Shown one piece after another: positions 57,607 to 64,000 of a stretch of DNA of 64,000 nt. Position numbers and translations under genes: made by a program. Position 1 is the first letter of the stretch. The number at the start of each line of letters is the position of its first letter. Below the pieces are notes generated by a model, which made no database searches, was not told the origin of the DNA, and saw only the letters and a program-made list of their open reading frames with translations. The DNA is from Pedobacter zeae (lineage in GTDB: Bacteria; Bacteroidota; Bacteroidia; Sphingobacteriales; Sphingobacteriaceae): assembly GCF_014196715.1 (NCBI RefSeq), contig NZ_JACIEF010000004.1, positions 124,001 through 188,000 of the forward strand, written 5' to 3'.

Positions 57607-58800
57607 ATGAAAAAAGTTGTTTTAGCATTTAGCGGAGGCTTAGATACCTCATTTTGTTGTATTTACCTGGCAAAAGACCGTGGGCTGGAAGTTCACTCGG
57701 TGATTGTAAATACCGGTGGTTTTTCTGATGAGGAATTACAGGAAATTGAGAAAAGGGCTTATGCTTTAGGTGTAAAATCGCATGCTGTGGTAGATGAAAC
57801 GGAAGGTTATTATGACGACTGTATCAAGTACCTGATTTTTGGCAACGTACTTAAAAATGCGACTTATCCACTATCCGTGAGTGCAGAACGCGTAAGTCAG
57901 GCAACCGCTATTGCCAATTATGTTAAAAAAATCGGGGCTGATTATGTGGCCCATGGCAGTACCGGCGCAGGTAATGACCAGGTACGTTTCGACATGATCT
58001 TTAATATCCTCATCCCTGGAGTAGAGATCATTACCCCGATCAGGGATTTAAAGTTATCACGCGAAGCAGAAATAGAATACCTGGCTCAACATGGAGTGGA
58101 ATATAGTGCCGAAAAAGCAAAATATTCAATTAATAAGGGGTTATGGGGAACTTCGGTAGGAGGAAAAGAAACGTTAACCTCTCACGAAACCTTGCCGGAA
58201 AGTGCCTGGCCAACACAGGTGTCGGAAACCGGATCGCGTAGGTTAGAACTAACTTTCGTGAAAGGCGAACTGGTAGCTATTGACGGTGAAACATTAGCTC
58301 CGGTTAGGGCAATCCAAAAATTACAGGCCATTGCACAGCCTTTCGGTATCGGAAGAGATATCCATGTGGGAGATACCATTATCGGCATTAAAGGCCGTGT
58401 TGGTTTCGAGGCCGCCGCACCGGTTATCATTATTAAAGCACACCATACTTTAGAGAAGCATACTTTAACCAAATGGCAGTTAAGCTGGAAAGAACAGTTA
58501 TCTTCTTTTTATGGCAACTGGTTGCACGAAGGGCAGTTTCACGATCCGGTTATGCGGAACATAGAAGCATTTTTAGCCGACACGCAAAAATTTGTGAGCG
58601 GTAAAGTATTTGTAGAACTGTTACCGTACCGTTTCCAGATCATCGGAATTGAATCAGACCACGATTTGATGAGCAATAAATTTGGTAGCTATGGCGAAAT
58701 GAATAATGCCTGGAGCGGAGAAGATGTTAAAGGTTTCTCCAAAATATTTGGTAATCAGGTAATGATCTGGCATAAAGTGAATAGCGAGGCTGAAGGCTAA
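57607..58800 (+). CDS. argG: Argininosuccinate synthase
   Basis: 397 residues. The ATP-pyrophosphatase loop AFSGGLDTSFCC at 8-19 marks the N-type ATP-PPase fold; ADYVAHGSTGAGNDQVRFD and ITPIRDLKLSRE are ArgG hallmarks. It joins citrulline and aspartate with ATP in the cytoplasm. It is close to the family length (about 400). It begins one base after the upstream GNAT stop, so the two are co-translated. Confidence 0.97.
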   Translation: MKKVVLAFSGGLDTSFCCIYLAKDRGLEVHSVIVNTGGFSDEELQEIEKRAYALGVKSHAVVDETEGYYDDCIKYLIFGNVLKNATYPLSVSAERVSQATAIANYVKKIGADYVAHGSTGAGNDQVRFDMIFNILIPGVEIITPIRDLKLSREAEIEYLAQHGVEYSAEKAKYSINKGLWGTSVGGKETLTSHETLPESAWPTQVSETGSRRLELTFVKGELVAIDGETLAPVRAIQKLQAIAQPFGIGRDIHVGDTIIGIKGRVGFEAAAPVIIIKAHHTLEKHTLTKWQLSWKEQLSSFYGNWLHEGQFHDPVMRNIEAFLADTQKFVSGKVFVELLPYRFQIIGIESDHDLMSNKFGSYGEMNNAWSGEDVKGFSKIFGNQVMIWHKVNSEAEG

Positions 58801-58852
58801 AAGCTTGAAGGCGTAAGGACTTGATACTCGATCCTTAATACTTATACTCAAA

Positions 58853-59203
58853 ATGAATAAAATCCTGTCAAAAGAAAATTGTATAAACCATTATAAATGG
58901 GGCGATAACTGTGATGGATGGAATTTTGTAAGCAAACCTGAAGCCATTATTAAACAGGAGTTAATGCCAGCTCAAACGGCCGAGAAATTACATTTCCATA
59001 CCTATGCAGAGCAGTTTTTCTTTATATTGAAGGGACAGGCAACTTTTTTAGTTGAAGGAGAAAAAATTAGGGTGGAGGCCAACAAAGGTTTACAGATTAA
59101 AGCTGGCGATAAACATAAAATTATAAATGATGGTGTTGATGATTTAGAATTTATTCTTTTCTCCTACCCATCAACCCAAAACGACAGAACGGATTGTGAA
59201 TAA
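58853..59203 (+). CDS. Small cupin-domain protein in the arginine operon
   Basis: 116 residues forming one cupin barrel. Metal-binding motif 1 is LHFHTYAEQFFFILKGQATF (two His and a Glu) and motif 2 contains the His of GDKHKI. The protein has no signal peptide. The cupin family is functionally diverse; nothing in the sequence links it to arginine synthesis except location. Its stop overlaps the GTG start of the next acetyltransferase by eight bases, implying coupled translation. Confidence 0.88.
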   Translation: MNKILSKENCINHYKWGDNCDGWNFVSKPEAIIKQELMPAQTAEKLHFHTYAEQFFFILKGQATFLVEGEKIRVEANKGLQIKAGDKHKIINDGVDDLEFILFSYPSTQNDRTDCE

Positions 59204-59666
59204 TATTACGATAAAGCAAATAGGATTAACCGAGGCCCATCTTGTGATCGGTCTGTTTAACCAATATCGTATGTTTTACAATCAGTTTTCGGATATCGGG
59301 ATGGCCACCGCTTTCATCGGCGAACGTTTGCAGCATAACGAATCCATTATATTTTTAGCCATAAACCAGGATACGGAACAACCCGTTGGTTTTACCCAGT
59401 TGTATCCTAAATACTCGTCGATAAGGCTGGATAAAAACTGGATACTGAACGACTTGTATGTTGCTGAAGATTACCGCAAGCAGGGGATCGGCAGAAAACT
59501 GATTAAAACCGTTATGGATTTTGCCAGGACCAAAGGATCTACATTTGTACAATTGGAAACCGCTATCGACAATTTTACTGCACAACAGCTATACGAAAGT
59601 ATCGGTTTTGTAAAGCAGCAAAATGACGAAGATTTTTTTCTTTATAAAATAGCACTAAACTCATAG
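59196..59666 (+). CDS. GNAT family N-acetyltransferase, GTG start
   Basis: 156 residues, starting MNNITIKQIGLTEAHLVIGL from a GTG at 59196 inside the end of the cupin gene. GNAT motif A is LNDLYVAEDYRKQGIGRKLI (Q/RxxGxG/A loop RKQGIG) and motif B is FVQLETAIDNFTAQQLYESI. It ends two bases before argC. Substrate unknown; the tight coupling to cupin and argC suggests it acts on an intermediate or a small amine in the same cells. Confidence 0.9.
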   Translation: MNNITIKQIGLTEAHLVIGLFNQYRMFYNQFSDIGMATAFIGERLQHNESIIFLAINQDTEQPVGFTQLYPKYSSIRLDKNWILNDLYVAEDYRKQGIGRKLIKTVMDFARTKGSTFVQLETAIDNFTAQQLYESIGFVKQQNDEDFFLYKIALNS

Positions 59667-59668
59667 AG

Positions 59669-60652
59669 ATGAATAAAATTAAAGCAGGAATAATCGGTGG
59701 TGCAGGTTATACAGGAGGCGAAATGTTACGCATCCTTATTAACCACCCAAATGTCGAAATTGCTTTTGTAAACAGTACCAGTAATGCAGGGAACCTGATT
59801 TCTGATGTGCATACTGATTTGGTAGGTGATACCGATTTAAAATTTGTAAGCAACATTGAGCAGGATATTGATGTATTGTTTCTATGCGTGGGCCACGGCG
59901 ATGCGAAAAAGTTTTTAGCTGAAAACCCGGTCAGCGAAACTATTAAAATCATCGATTTATCACAGGATTTTAGGTTGCATCAGAAATCGACATTCGAAAA
60001 CCGCGAATTTGTTTACGGATTGCCCGAACTGAACCGCGACAAAATTAAAACAGCTAAAAATATTGCCAATCCGGGCTGTTTCGCAACATGTATCCAGTTA
60101 GGGTTATTGCCTTTGGCTGAAAAGGGATTGATCCGGAAAGAGGTCCACATCAATGCAACTACCGGTTCAACCGGAGCCGGACAAAGTTTGGCTGCCACTT
60201 CGCACTTCAGCTGGAGAAACAATAATCTTTCTGTTTATAAAGCATTTGAGCACCAGCACCTGAACGAGATCAGCGAAAGTTTATTGCAGTTACAGCCCTC
60301 ACTTTCAGAGGTTTTAAACTTTATCCCTCAGCGCGGAGCTTTTACCCGCGGCATTTTGGCTGCAATGTACCTGGAAACTGATTTAACTTTAGAAGAAGCA
60401 CAAAACATTTACGAAGAATATTATAGTGCCCATCCTTTTACACATGTTAGCCGGAAAAACATCGATTTAAAACAGGTGGTAAATACCAATAAAGCGTTGG
60501 TTCATGTAGAAAAACATGGAGGTAAATTATTTATCATCAGCATTATCGATAACCTTTTAAAAGGTGCCAGCGGACAAGCGGTTCAGAATATGAATATCAT
60601 GTTTGGTCTGGAGGAAACCGCAGGACTTAGATTGAAGGCAGCTAATTTTTAA
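59669..60652 (+). CDS. argC: N-acyl-gamma-glutamyl-phosphate reductase
   Basis: 327 residues. NADP-binding GGAGYTGGE at 10-18 and the active-site Cys137 in ANPGCFAT. Also INATTGSTGAGQ and FIPQRGAFTRGI, typical of ArgC. Reduces the acyl-glutamyl phosphate made by ArgB to the semialdehyde. Given the ArgF' specificity residue in this operon, the natural acyl group may be succinyl. Confidence 0.97.
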   Translation: MNKIKAGIIGGAGYTGGEMLRILINHPNVEIAFVNSTSNAGNLISDVHTDLVGDTDLKFVSNIEQDIDVLFLCVGHGDAKKFLAENPVSETIKIIDLSQDFRLHQKSTFENREFVYGLPELNRDKIKTAKNIANPGCFATCIQLGLLPLAEKGLIRKEVHINATTGSTGAGQSLAATSHFSWRNNNLSVYKAFEHQHLNEISESLLQLQPSLSEVLNFIPQRGAFTRGILAAMYLETDLTLEEAQNIYEEYYSAHPFTHVSRKNIDLKQVVNTNKALVHVEKHGGKLFIISIIDNLLKGASGQAVQNMNIMFGLEETAGLRLKAANF

Positions 60653-60654
60653 CG

Positions 60655-61084
60655 AAGGTAAAGGGTATAGGGTTTAAGGCATGAGGTAAAATAATGAGAG
60701 ATTACAAAAAACTTGACGTTTGGAAAAAGGCACATGAATTGAATATGTTCATCAAAAAGAATATTGCAACTCAATTTCCAAAAGAGGAGAGATTTGAATT
60801 GACCTCGCAACTTACCAGGGCTTCCTTATCTATACCTTTGAATATTGTTGAAGGATGTGGAAGATTTACAGATAAAGATTTTGCACATTTTCTAGATAAT
60901 GCTTTAGGTTCTGCTAACGAGATAGATTATTGTTGTTTATGTGCTTCTGAATTAAAGTATATAAGTGAAGATGATTATCTAAAAGTGAACCAATCAATTA
61001 ACGAAGTTAGGGCAATGCTAATTTCATTTTTAAAATTTTTGAGAAGTGGAGGGAAAAAACCTTAAACCCTATACCTCAAACCTT
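60655..61084. repeat. Inverted repeat enclosing the S23-family gene
   Basis: Left arm GGTATAGGGTTTAAGG at 60664-60679 and right arm CCTTAAACCCTATACC at 61060-61075 are perfectly complementary over 16 bases. After a wobble pair and a small internal loop, AAGGT (60655-60659) pairs with ACCTT (61080-61084). The right arm contains the stop codon of the enclosed gene (61063-61065). A further copy of the word follows (CCTTAAACCTCAAAT). Confidence 0.85.
60694..61065 (+). CDS. S23-family four-helix-bundle protein (23S rRNA intervening-sequence type)
   Basis: 123 residues: YKKLDVWKKAHELNMFIK, FPKEERFELTSQLTRASLSI, PLNIVEGCGRF, and ANEIDYCCLCASELKYIS. These match the S23/IVP family, proteins encoded inside intervening sequences of 23S rRNA genes and related to the Avd accessory protein of diversity-generating retroelements. 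It is basic and likely binds nucleic acid. It sits between argC and argD, where it has no known metabolic role, and is framed by a complementary repeat that would put the ORF in the loop of a long mRNA stem. Confidence 0.92.
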   Translation: MRDYKKLDVWKKAHELNMFIKKNIATQFPKEERFELTSQLTRASLSIPLNIVEGCGRFTDKDFAHFLDNALGSANEIDYCCLCASELKYISEDDYLKVNQSINEVRAMLISFLKFLRSGGKKP

Positions 61085-61100
61085 AAACCTCAAATCAAAT

Positions 61101-62231
61101 ATGCAATTATTCGACGTTTACCCACTTAACGATATAGAAATAACCAAAGCAGCAGGCAGTAATGTTTGGGATGCTAACGAACAACAATATTTAGATTTAT
61201 ATGGCGGACATGCTGTGATTTCAATTGGGCATACCCATCCGCATTATGTAAGCCGTTTAACCGATCAGTTAAACAAGGTTGGTTTTTATTCCAATTCGGT
61301 TAAAATTCCTTTGCAGGTACAATTGGCCCAGAAGCTTGGCGAAATATCTGGCAAAAAAGACTTCCAGTTATTTTTATGTAACTCAGGAGCTGAGGCCAAT
61401 GAAAATGCACTAAAACTGGCCTCCTTTTACAATGGAAGGAAAAAGGTAATTGCATTTACAGGTGCTTTCCACGGGCGTACCTCACTGGCAGTGGCTGTAA
61501 CCGATAATCCTAAAATCGTAGCTCCGGTTAACCAGACCGAAAATGTAATCTTTTTGCCTTTTAATAATGAAATTGCTTTAGAGGAAACTTTTAAAGCGCA
61601 GGGCAATGATATTTCGGCAGTAATTATAGAAGGTATACAAGGTGTAGGTGGTATTAAGGAGGCTTCAAAAAGTTTCTTACAAAAAATCCGTGCGCTTTGT
61701 GACGAATATAATGCCGTTTACATTGCCGATAGCGTACAATGCGGCTACGGACGCACAGGCTCGTTCTATTCGCATGATTATGCTGGCGTAGAAGCAGATA
61801 TATATACCATGGCAAAAGGAATGGGTAATGGATTTCCCGTGGCCGGGATTTCTATTGCGCCTAAATTTAAACCTTGGCATGGCGAGTTAGGCACCACTTT
61901 CGGGGGTAACCACCTGGCATGTGCTGCGGCTTTAGCGGTTTTGGAAGTGATAGAAAAAGATAACCTTATTAAAAATGCTGAAGAAGTAGGTAATTACCTC
62001 ATTGCAGAACTTAAAAAATTTGAGCAGGTAGTAGAAGTACGCGGTCGTGGATTAATGATCGGAATTGAATTGCCTTCTGAACTGGCACATGTTAAAAAAG
62101 AGTTATTGTTTACTTACCATATTTTTACCGGAGAAGCAAAACCAAATGTAATCCGTTTATTGCCTGCATTAAATTTGACTAAAGGACATGCTGATGAGTT
62201 TTTAGCAGCGTTTAGTAAGTTGGTGAAATAA
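61101..62231 (+). CDS. argD: N-acylornithine aminotransferase (class III PLP)
   Basis: 376 residues. The PLP-binding Lys239 is in TMAKGMGNGFPVAG, with pyridine-nitrogen Asp210 in IADSVQCGYGRTG, where most ArgD proteins have DEVQ (Ser replaces Glu211). NSGAEANENALKLA and TGAFHGRT are also present. Transfers an amino group to the acyl-glutamate semialdehyde. Operon position between argC and argF' fits. Confidence 0.94.
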   Translation: MQLFDVYPLNDIEITKAAGSNVWDANEQQYLDLYGGHAVISIGHTHPHYVSRLTDQLNKVGFYSNSVKIPLQVQLAQKLGEISGKKDFQLFLCNSGAEANENALKLASFYNGRKKVIAFTGAFHGRTSLAVAVTDNPKIVAPVNQTENVIFLPFNNEIALEETFKAQGNDISAVIIEGIQGVGGIKEASKSFLQKIRALCDEYNAVYIADSVQCGYGRTGSFYSHDYAGVEADIYTMAKGMGNGFPVAGISIAPKFKPWHGELGTTFGGNHLACAAALAVLEVIEKDNLIKNAEEVGNYLIAELKKFEQVVEVRGRGLMIGIELPSELAHVKKELLFTYHIFTGEAKPNVIRLLPALNLTKGHADEFLAAFSKLVK

Positions 62232-62398
62232 AGCAGATAACGGGTAGGTAGAAGGCCTTGGATGCAAGGGCTAAGAATTGTAAATTAAAAAATTAAATCA
62301 GGCGGTATCAATCGCAATTATAAATTTTGAGCGCTGGAAGATGGAGTAATAACAAATCCTCACCCCTCCGGCACTCAACCTTTAATCTCATAAAAAAG

Positions 62399-63373
62399 AT
62401 GAACTTGTTCACCTCCGTACACGATGTTCCAAGCATCAAACAGTTTGTAAATGATGCGCTTGCATTAAAGGAAAATCCTTTTGCATACCAGGATTTAGGT
62501 AAAAACAAGACTTTGGGTCTGGTTTTTATGAACCCGAGTTTACGTACCCGCTTAAGTACGCAAAAGGCAGCCTTAAACCTGGGCATGAATGTAATGGTAA
62601 TGAATATGGATAAAGAGGGCTGGGCTTTAGAAACACAGGATGGTGTGGTGATGAATGGTACAACGGTTGAACACATCCGCGAAGCTGCAGCTGTAATGGG
62701 CCAATACTGCGATATTTTGGGTTTACGTTCTTTCCCGAAGCTAAACAACCGGGAAGAGGATTACAGCGAAGATTTCTTTAATAAATTTGTTAAATACTGC
62801 GCGGTGCCTGTAGTAAGTTTAGAGAGTGCAACACGTCACCCATTACAAAGTTTTGCCGATATCATTACCATTCATGAAACCTGGACAAAAAAGCCTGACG
62901 GACGTAAACCAAAGGTAGTTCTGGCCTGGGCGCCACATGTTAAGGCTTTGCCACAGGCGGTACCAAATTCTTTTGCCGAGTGGATGTGTAAAGCACAGGA
63001 AGAAGGCATGATCGATTTTACGATAGCCCAACCAGAAGGTTACGAACTTTCGGAAGATTTTACACCCGGAGCAAATATCCAGTATAATTTAGAGGAAGCT
63101 TTATCCGGAGCAGATTATGTGTATGTGAAAAACTGGAGCAGTTATAAAGAATACGGTAAAGTATTAACTTACCCTGATGGCTGGATGATGAATAATGAGA
63201 AGTTGAAATTTACCAATGATGCCAAAGTAATGCACTGCTTACCGGTACGCCGTGATTTGGAATTATCATCCGAAATTTTAGATGGGCCAAACTCGTTGGT
63301 GATCCACGAGGCAGGTAACCGCTTATGGGCTGCACAGGCGGTAATTAAAGCGATATTGGAAGAATTGAAATAA
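62399..63373 (+). CDS. argF': N-succinylornithine/N-acetylornithine carbamoyltransferase
   Basis: 324 residues from the ATG at 62399; a longer frame upstream reads through non-conserved sequence. Carbamoyl-phosphate loop SLRTRLST at 47-54, HPLQSFAD and HCLPVRR are present. The specificity position, Pro90 in the Bacteroides fragilis succinylornithine enzyme and Glu92 in the Xanthomonas acetylornithine enzyme, is Val90 here (GTTVEHIRE). Published substitutions of that Glu by Pro, Ser, Val or Ala gave succinylornithine activity, so the succinyl substrate is favoured. Confidence 0.93.
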   Translation: MNLFTSVHDVPSIKQFVNDALALKENPFAYQDLGKNKTLGLVFMNPSLRTRLSTQKAALNLGMNVMVMNMDKEGWALETQDGVVMNGTTVEHIREAAAVMGQYCDILGLRSFPKLNNREEDYSEDFFNKFVKYCAVPVVSLESATRHPLQSFADIITIHETWTKKPDGRKPKVVLAWAPHVKALPQAVPNSFAEWMCKAQEEGMIDFTIAQPEGYELSEDFTPGANIQYNLEEALSGADYVYVKNWSSYKEYGKVLTYPDGWMMNNEKLKFTNDAKVMHCLPVRRDLELSSEILDGPNSLVIHEAGNRLWAAQAVIKAILEELK

Positions 63374-63408
63374 TAGTTTTTGTCCAAATTAACCCCAGAT
63401 AAAAAGGA

Positions 63409-63465
63409 TAACCACAGATACTTTTTTATGCCTAATCTAGGTTTATCTGTGCACATCTGTGGTTA
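63409..63465. repeat. Inverted repeat between argF' and argB
   Basis: TAACCACAGAT (63409-63419) and ATCTGTGGTTA (63455-63465) are perfectly complementary over 11 bases, with inner AGATAAA/TTTATCT-like words. It forms a hairpin with a ~35-base loop and no ORF, inside the 108-base gap. Confidence 0.7.
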
Positions 63466-63481
63466 ACTACTAAAATAGATT

Positions 63482-64000
63482 ATGAAACAACTCACTATCA
63501 TAAAAATCGGTGGAAACGTAATCGATAATTCAGAAAACCTGCATCAGTTTTTATTGGATTTTACAGCTTTGCCCGGAGATAAAATTTTGGTTCATGGCGG
63601 AGGTAAAATTGCAACCGAACTGAGCGAATCGTTAGGCATTGAGGCTAAAATGATTGAGGGTAGACGGATTACTGATATCGAAACCTTAAGGATCGTAACG
63701 ATGGTTTATGCTGGCTTAATCAATAAAAACATGGTAGCGCAATTACAGGCAAAAGGCAGCAATGCTATTGGTTTGAGCGGCGCAGATGGAAATGTAATCA
63801 AAGCAACCAAGCGGCCGGTAAAGGCAGTAACTTACGGCAATGAGCCCGGACCGTTAGCCGGTTCAGTAATCGATTATGGTTATGTGGGCGATCTTGATGA
63901 AAATTCGGTGTCATCGGGTACTTTACATAGTTTGTTGAATGCTGGCCTGGTTCCGGTACTATGTGCCATTACCCATGATGGGAATTCACAGTTGCTTAAT
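63482..64000 (+). CDS. argB: N-acylglutamate kinase, 3'-truncated by the window
   Basis: 173 codons are in the window with no stop. MKQLTIIKIGGNVIDNSE carries the substrate-phosphate Lys8 and the Gly-rich loop, ILVHGGGKIATELSE the second Gly loop, and IGLSGADGNVIKA the amino-acid-kinase core. It phosphorylates acyl-glutamate, the second step of the pathway. Remaining arginine genes (argE-type deacylase, argH) are expected just outside the window. Confidence 0.95.
   Translation, partial: MKQLTIIKIGGNVIDNSENLHQFLLDFTALPGDKILVHGGGKIATELSESLGIEAKMIEGRRITDIETLRIVTMVYAGLINKNMVAQLQAKGSNAIGLSGADGNVIKATKRPVKAVTYGNEPGPLAGSVIDYGYVGDLDENSVSSGTLHSLLNAGLVPVLCAITHDGNSQLLN

Follow-up and report, generated by a model that had tools for sequence, protein, structure and literature searches.

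The window, by which we mean the whole 64-kb stretch of DNA that was analysed, carries an S23/IVP four-helix-bundle gene in the gap between argC and argD. The features of the locus are as follows.

59669–60652, plus strand: argC, the operon neighbour upstream of the S23 gene (TIGR01850, above cut-off)
60655–60691, plus strand: left (upstream) arm of 5.3 degenerate heptamers, AAGGTAA AGGGTAT AGGGTTT AAGGCAT GAGGTAA (profile and sequence)
60664–60679, plus strand: left half of a 16-bp perfect inverted repeat, GGTATAGGGTTTAAGG (sequence comparison)
60694–61065, plus strand: S23/IVP four-helix-bundle gene, 123 aa (PF05635, TIGR02436)
61057–61094, minus strand: right (downstream) arm of 5.4 heptamers, the same word on the opposite strand (profile)
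61060–61075, minus strand: right half of the 16-bp perfect inverted repeat, the complement of GGTATAGGGTTTAAGG (sequence comparison)
61101–62231, plus strand: argD-type acetylornithine transaminase gene, the downstream neighbour (TIGR00707, E 1e-104, below cut-off)
62232–62398, plus strand: putative remains of a second, type-C S23 cassette, lying between argD and the gene for N-acetylornithine carbamoyltransferase ("argF") (similarity to intact cassettes)

The S23 protein matched PF05635 (23S_rRNA_IVP, E 5e-36), the sole Pfam family found on it, and TIGR02436 (four helix bundle protein, NCBIfam). Its AlphaFold model (pLDDT 96) matched the solved entries 2GSC (gene XCC0516, TM up to 0.96 by target length) and 2RLD. 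The gene stands in sense direction in a protein-coding operon and not in a 23S rRNA gene, and an Rfam search of positions 58800–64000 gave no match at gathering score. The nearest named relatives of the protein were ten Pedobacter loci with 95–99% identity, and PF05635 was present in at least 116 of the 148 sampled genomes of the phylum, Bacteroidota. Median dN/dS of S23 in the clade was 0.046 over 71 pairs; as judged from sequence comparison, the protein is under purifying selection.

The preliminary description had placed the S23 ORF inside a 16-base perfect inverted repeat with an outer 5-bp extension and had noted that the right arm covers the stop codon. These coordinates were confirmed: the stop codon (61063–61065) lies inside the right arm, and the arms at 60655–60679 and 61060–61084, including the outer AAGGT/ACCTT extension, are 84% complementary over 25 nt. 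No other perfect inverted 16-mer pair with a loop of 0–600 nt exists in the window, and 60 dinucleotide shuffles of the window gave zero such pairs with a loop of 50–600 nt. What had been missed is the nature of the arms, both of which are heptamer arrays of about five degenerate units each. The unit counts of 5.3 and 5.4 come from a profile built from other clade-A S23 genes, with the gene of the window left out.

The layout was then compared across 273 S23 genes, matching the 220 nt upstream of each gene with the reverse complement of a stretch made up of its last 24 nt and the 220 nt that follow; a score above 13, the 99th percentile of dinucleotide shuffles, was taken as a pass. The set comprised 125 genes of the genus (two of 127 had no 220-nt flanks and were left out) and 148 later genes from a phylum sample and from named loci (177 S23 ORF hits, reduced to 170 genes by dropping identical copies and short flanks, less 22 whose protein the genus set already contained). 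The genes are best-scoring hits and not a random sample, the genus set is a part of the S23 genes of the genus, and the named loci (best 80 of 81) were found with the window's own protein and are thus biased to the arg clade. An inverted flank match was found in 190 of the 273 genes and a direct match in 37, with 83 genes below the inverted threshold. After clustering at 70% identity, the cluster median exceeded the threshold in 80 of 112 clusters for inverted and in 9 of 112 for direct flanks; within the genus, 89/125 genes passed in inverted and 23/125 in direct orientation. Among control genes, 0/39 of the window passed, and for those from 220 kb of the same genome (hereafter the own genome) the numbers were 4/160 inverted and 9/160 direct. 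Complementary arms around other S23 genes, a check that the preliminary description had proposed, are therefore a recurring architecture (190/273 versus 4/160).

This layout also extends to loci unassigned to Bacteroidota, where 16 of 17 S23 genes passed the inverted test and the sole miss was the cyanobacterial L360. Eight of these genes are cyanobacterial, four are from Verrucomicrobiota, two lie in one unclassified bacterium (L358), and the rest are from MAGs (one each gammaproteobacterial, acidobacterial and Dojkabacteria); there were 19 such loci, of which L361, L364 and L366 were dropped in the removal of duplicates and short flanks. On two cyanobacterial plasmids (L368 and L370, of Pseudanabaena galeata and Anabaena sp. 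90), S23 with inverted heptamer flanks is located between cas6 and cas4 of a CRISPR locus. One of the few exceptions is L273, an S23 gene with a strong direct flank match (score 53) and not an inverted one.

The period of the flanks is seven in most cases. In the genus set, the match fraction was 0.489 at lag 7 and 0.454 at lag 14, with 0.25–0.32 at other lags, and of the 101 later genes that passed, 89 had their best lag at 7 and 10 had it at 8. A period of 8 fits better in 24 of the 190 passing cassettes and in two of the twelve profiled S23 clades. Arm length was measured by leaving each gene out of its own profile, excluding the period-8 clades and arms that did not beat their own shuffled flank; the median was 4.7 units for 93 upstream arms and 5.0 for 94 downstream arms, and the clade medians fell between 4.4 and 5.2 units in 10/10 period-7 clades. 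When rounded, upstream arms had five units in 41/93 and four in 32/93, and downstream arms five in 50/94 and four in 22/94. Five was also the mode of both arms among the 166 passing period-7 cassettes (67 upstream, 83 downstream).

The arms have a fixed polarity. The gene-sense arm contains more G than C in 168/190 genes (71/82 clusters), and the unit contains AG in 165/190 genes versus CT in 43/190. The comparison shows that both arms point inward at the S23 gene and that the upstream arm carries the AG-containing word on its gene-sense side. The solved S23 entries 2GSC and 2RLD have five chains each, and the reference title of 2GSC speaks of five four-helix bundles; from these numbers we infer one heptamer per S23 subunit.

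The word itself differs between S23 lineages. Among the 190 passing genes there were 123 distinct consensus units, and the clade words include AAGGTTT, AAAGACY, GAAGGYT, AGTATCA, AGATKTG, AGTCCGA, GAGTTTG and others. For ordered pairs of genes, we matched the first gene's upstream arm to the second gene's downstream arm. With S23 proteins at least 70% identical, arms matched in 66% of 618 same-site pairs and in 54% of 300 different-site pairs; at 55–70% identity, 3% of 370 pairs at the same site and 7% of 388 at different sites did so, and below 55% identity the values were 0–3%. Arm matching follows S23 identity and not the shared site, which means that the heptamer word moves with the protein, whatever the site. 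This comparison shows that S23 protein lineage and heptamer word are coupled.

The argC–argD junction gives an example, as three protein types with different words were found there among genomes whose argC C-terminal part is more than 90% identical to that of the window, and further S23 types occupy it in more distant genomes. Over a larger distance, 14 S23s from Chitinophagaceae and other non-Pedobacter relatives (69–76% identical) matched Pedobacter clade-A arms in a mean of 43% of pairings, versus 1.3% (0.013) with the other Pedobacter arms. Two of these 14 match clade-A arms not at all, and seven fail the threshold with their own two arms. The word is thus conserved between families in part.

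S23 genes of the genus occupy few sites: argG–argC, argC–argD, argD–argF, metH–metF, aguB–aguA, folP–dacA, a hydroxyacyl-CoA dehydrogenase–thiolase–acyl-CoA dehydrogenase set, a place upstream of 3-methyladenine glycosylase, and some others. The names argG, argC, argD, carbamoyltransferase, aguB, aguA, metF, metH, tag and thiolase were checked by NCBIfam, several of them as best hits below cut-off on gene pieces only, and the rest were assigned by eye. S23 is co-directional with both neighbours in 115/125 genus genes versus 76/163 control genes. Where a clade-A cassette follows argD, its upstream arm encodes a new argD C-terminus, e.g. KGVGHKV (L134, L289, L294, L298 and similar).

An argC match was found in 59/59 genus genomes. 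The argC–argD gap contains S23 sequence in 30 of 38 S23-bearing genomes and in 0 of 21 S23-less ones; in all 21 of the latter it is a short gap of 32–122 nt, and all of these come from a separate clade. The comparison of junctions with and without the cassette, suggested in the preliminary description, thus gave a short gap without S23 in every S23-less genome. By eye, the gap of G042 holds a hairpin with type-B-like arms and no gene, that of G020 an S23 remnant, and that of G015 is short and plain. REP-like hairpins of the TCATGCTGAG or TCATACTGAG type were seen by eye in this gap in G007, G030, G055 and G056. At the same junction of G039 (L098, 1857–2399), a gene matched NF047646, REP-associated tyrosine transposase, with E 1.2e-15, which is below cut-off, and a Pfam search of this gene gave no match.

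The next gap of the window appears to hold a cassette in decay. Positions 62232–62398 aligned with an intact type-C cassette over its 3' end and right arm, with a score of 38.5 (shuffled maximum 15.3), and five of six comparisons of the argD–argF gap with intact type-C cassettes beat the shuffles, the exception being L090. A check of this gap for inverted arms found none (score 6.0), and its reading as a decayed type-C cassette comes solely from similarity to the intact ones. Among 32 distinct argD–argF gaps, five contain an S23 remnant with a right arm (L296, L302, L336, L339 and L340, by eye) and four a probable decayed type-C cassette (the window together with L292, L334 and L337, the relatives by eye). 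Several decay stages were seen at this junction in relatives. In the gap after the carbamoyltransferase gene (63380–63481) we noticed by eye that ataaccacagata ... tatctgtgcacatctgtggttaact form an imperfect inverted repeat, an intergenic hairpin unlike the S23 arms.

The preliminary description had suggested a mobile element of IVS type. In 55 of the 79 loci found with the window's protein, among them loci of Chitinophagaceae and Saprospiraceae, argC or argD lies within the fetched flanks (up to 3 kb), which indicates long-term operon faithfulness and argues against frequent random hopping. No transposition was seen in the comparisons of S23 loci. The S23 clades are largely operon-specific and seem to have been inherited mostly in place.

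Arrays also occur away from S23 genes. In the own genome the pattern CCTTAAACCCTATACC was found 237 times at up to 3 mismatches, versus 88 times for the pattern read backwards. For each of three words tested, the cognate repeat was dispersed in genomes with that S23 lineage; in the own genome its arrays often formed small convergent pairs that lack the gene. The medians of the three words were 44 versus 7, 13 versus 0 and 17 versus 0 in the 38 S23-bearing and 21 S23-less genomes; since a tree of argC and argD pieces groups all S23-less genomes in one clade, this difference counts as a single phylogenetic contrast. Within the 38 S23-bearing genomes, the cognate word was commoner where the cognate S23 was present (p=0.014, 0.0002 and 0.0014, kinship uncorrected), in a test with false negatives, as the genus S23 genes were taken in part, the best-scoring ones. 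The six tests of non-cognate word and S23 gave p of 0.057–0.53. S23 copy number and array counts were weakly correlated (Spearman 0.13–0.32).

The best pattern matches in the own genome were taken as 21 solo sites; these had 44 arrays with a median of 3.9 units, five units being commonest (15/44), and shuffled copies of the sites gave 0.36 arrays per site. Neighbouring array pairs were convergent in 12 cases and divergent in 2, and 11 of the 12 convergent pairs had a loop shorter than 60 nt, two of them overlapping. A strict period detector run on 284 kb reported 12 intergenic arrays of period 7, with 30 of period 4, 10 of period 5, 2 of period 6 and zero of periods 8–12. It found one inverted partner at threshold, and the word-based searches gave more pairs. 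Other arrays were noticed in these searches. Longer CCCTAAA arrays, telomere-like, perfect and reaching about 21 units, where the S23 arms are degenerate and have about five, are located at G000:C1:874147-874204 and G000:C3:864696-864760 in the own genome and at G028:C1:170302-170450 in a related one. A TTTGGCG heptamer array of the own genome (L215:5258-5327) is possibly related to the flanks of L004, the S23 gene that lies between trigger factor and clpP in the same genome.

The preliminary description had compared the arms with the stem-forming ends of rRNA intervening sequences and suggested that the S23 protein could bind the stem. RNA folding of the cassette region gave z = -4.1; the comparisons of arms, however, did not show that pairing is what selection keeps. 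In 23 clade-A cassettes, with two junctions pooled, standard pairs made up 0.859 with own arms versus 0.866 with permuted arms (p=0.93), and A:C mismatches recurred at several stem positions. Among same-site relatives at least 70% identical, own arms scored 15.54 versus 15.15 for crossed arms (n=95, p=0.16). The subset with an own score above threshold gave 17.31 versus 16.13 (n=68, p=0.0005), a selection biased towards own arms. Swapping arms among relatives of 45–90% identity gave 15.42 for own versus 10.82 for swapped arms (122 genes, p=2.7e-19), and we rejected this as pairing evidence because clades with different words were mixed. Selection appears to act on the heptamer word and not on arm pairing.

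The likeness to the intervening sequences (IVS) of 23S rRNA, on which the preliminary description was built, was upheld by comparison with Coxiella burnetii. As Warrier et al. (2016, PMC4990558) describe it, the Coxiella IVS has an S23-family ORF between inverted ends, tandem GACAGAT heptamers directly upstream of S23p, in numbers that differ from strain to strain, and a terminal stem of 28 bp that RNase III cuts. The heptamers beside the ORF and the inverted ends are shared with the window's cassette. The cassette differs in its position at a protein-coding operon junction, in having heptamers on both sides, and in the many words tied to protein lineage; the Coxiella ORF was judged in that paper to be decaying under reductive evolution, whereas the S23 here is under purifying selection. 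Of the features of a 23S rRNA IVS, the cassette thus has the S23/IVP ORF and the complementary ends, and it has neither the insertion in a 23S rRNA gene nor a stem kept by base pairing (p=0.93; p=0.16 unselected, p=0.0005 in the subset picked by own score). Flanking ORFs and short rRNA motifs were used to look for S23 inside 23S rRNA in the fetched loci, and no case was seen, so the Coxiella paper is the one source of the rRNA comparison. The same paper still calls the function and origin of rRNA IVS unclear more than 25 years after their discovery (PMC4990558).

We consider it likely that the S23 gene and the two inverted heptamer arrays form one module, consisting of a small protein and its own recognition repeat. 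The best reading is that this module is kin to the 23S rRNA intervening sequence and resides in mRNA operons. The coupling of word and lineage suggests that each S23 protein recognises its own DNA or RNA word, and the cassette would then be an element of IVS type that is faithful to its site, with a protein that recognises its own arrays and probably aids their maintenance or spread. As to mechanism, an S23 pentamer would bind an arm of its own word, as DNA or RNA, with one heptamer per subunit, and two pentamers on the inverted arms could hold the cassette ends together. Such a two-ended hold would suit an element able to protect, copy or correct its cassette and to seed solo arrays. In a 23S rRNA IVS, arms of this anatomy yield the RNase III stem; the present cassette sits in the arg operon.

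The main rival in our ranking, though rather unlikely, is that S23 is a domesticated regulator that binds the arms in mRNA or DNA and tunes the downstream genes, here argD. The co-directionality with both neighbours (115/125 versus 76/163), the presence of argC or argD near S23 in 55/79 loci including Chitinophagaceae and Saprospiraceae, and the dN/dS of 0.046 would all suit a host function of this sort. It accounts poorly for the patchy presence, with 0/21 genomes of one clade carrying S23 at argC–argD, for the replacement of one word and protein type by another at a single junction, for the many cognate-word arrays away from S23 genes, and for relics formed by deletion. Less probable still is an intervening sequence at the level of mRNA, in which pairing of the transcribed arms would let RNase III or another nuclease excise S23 and split the argC and argD messages. 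The stable predicted stem (z = -4.1) agrees with it, but the arms show no compensatory covariation and the A:C mismatches recur at several stem positions.

That the arms are plain simple-sequence repeats, slippage-prone heptamers piling up in intergenic gaps with S23 genes merely among them, we regard as very improbable. Heptamer arrays are indeed common in such genomes, and the longer perfect CCCTAAA arrays exist as well. Against this, control genes of the own genome rarely show the layout (4/160), the inverted polarity is fixed, the distribution of arm length is narrow, and the word is matched to the protein, partly over family distance; the arm pairings argue against words that follow the genome or local base composition.

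Beyond the module of one protein and its repeat, we might speculate that S23/IVP is an unrecognised class of modular sequence readers, with the classical rRNA IVS as one landing place of a much larger protein-repeat system that spread heptamer arrays through many bacterial genomes; this wider proposal is tentative and may well prove wrong. A pentamer would read five tandem heptamers that share an AG core and differ in their lineage-specific other letters, and the code by which the family recognises single- or double-stranded nucleic acid would have diverged. As an orphan family PF05635 is widespread, and a cognate heptamer for each lineage offers it a testable function. Provided that each subunit reads one heptamer, recognition could be decoded from dozens of natural protein and word pairs (80 clusters). 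The link between S23 and heptamers would place rRNA intervening sequences inside a wider protein-repeat system, and it offers a possible origin for the heptameric repeats of Xanthomonas, Nostoc and Beggiatoaceae.

The logic of the S23 module, not its chemistry, is comparable to that of REP repeats and RAYT transposases. In the REP/RAYT system, a protein lineage has its own dispersed short intergenic repeat, which also flanks the protein gene. S23 resembles REP or REPIN with RAYT in having a protein lineage with its own dispersed intergenic repeat; it differs in being a four-helix bundle and no Y1 (HuH) transposase (PF05635 as the only Pfam family, and structure), and its unit is a heptamer array and not a REP palindrome.

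The fold is shared with Avd of diversity-generating retroelements (4DWL, and the DGR complexes 8UB7/8UBE). Foldseek matches of the S23 model to these entries had TM of 0.71–0.78 by query and 0.79–0.88 by target, with E of 0.05–0.5 and weaker; 4DWL gave 0.77/0.88 with E 0.05. At the sequence level the NCBIfam match to Avd (3.7e-5) is below cut-off and identity is about 10%. No reverse transcriptase was seen by eye among the 31 neighbour clusters of the 125 genus S23 genes. The resemblance of PF05635 to Avd was pointed out in PMC10053308, according to which Avd works in a retroelement ribonucleoprotein.

Heptameric intergenic repeats are known in cyanobacteria as STRR. Intergenic heptamers have been described without S23 in Beggiatoaceae (TAACTGA), Xanthomonas (GGGAATC) and Nostoc (GGGGAYT) (PMC4692102, PMC4679880). 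Like the S23 arms these are period-7 arrays, with inverted pairs in Xanthomonas, and the terms "S23" and "four helix" are absent from the main texts of both papers. Among the matches listed in the open-access literature there was no general link of S23 genes to heptamer arrays. In two strains of Flavobacterium columnare, a four helix bundle gene is reported between the guanylate kinase and nicotinate mononucleotide adenylyltransferase genes (PMC5524665), which would be another operon-like site of the kind occupied by S23 here.
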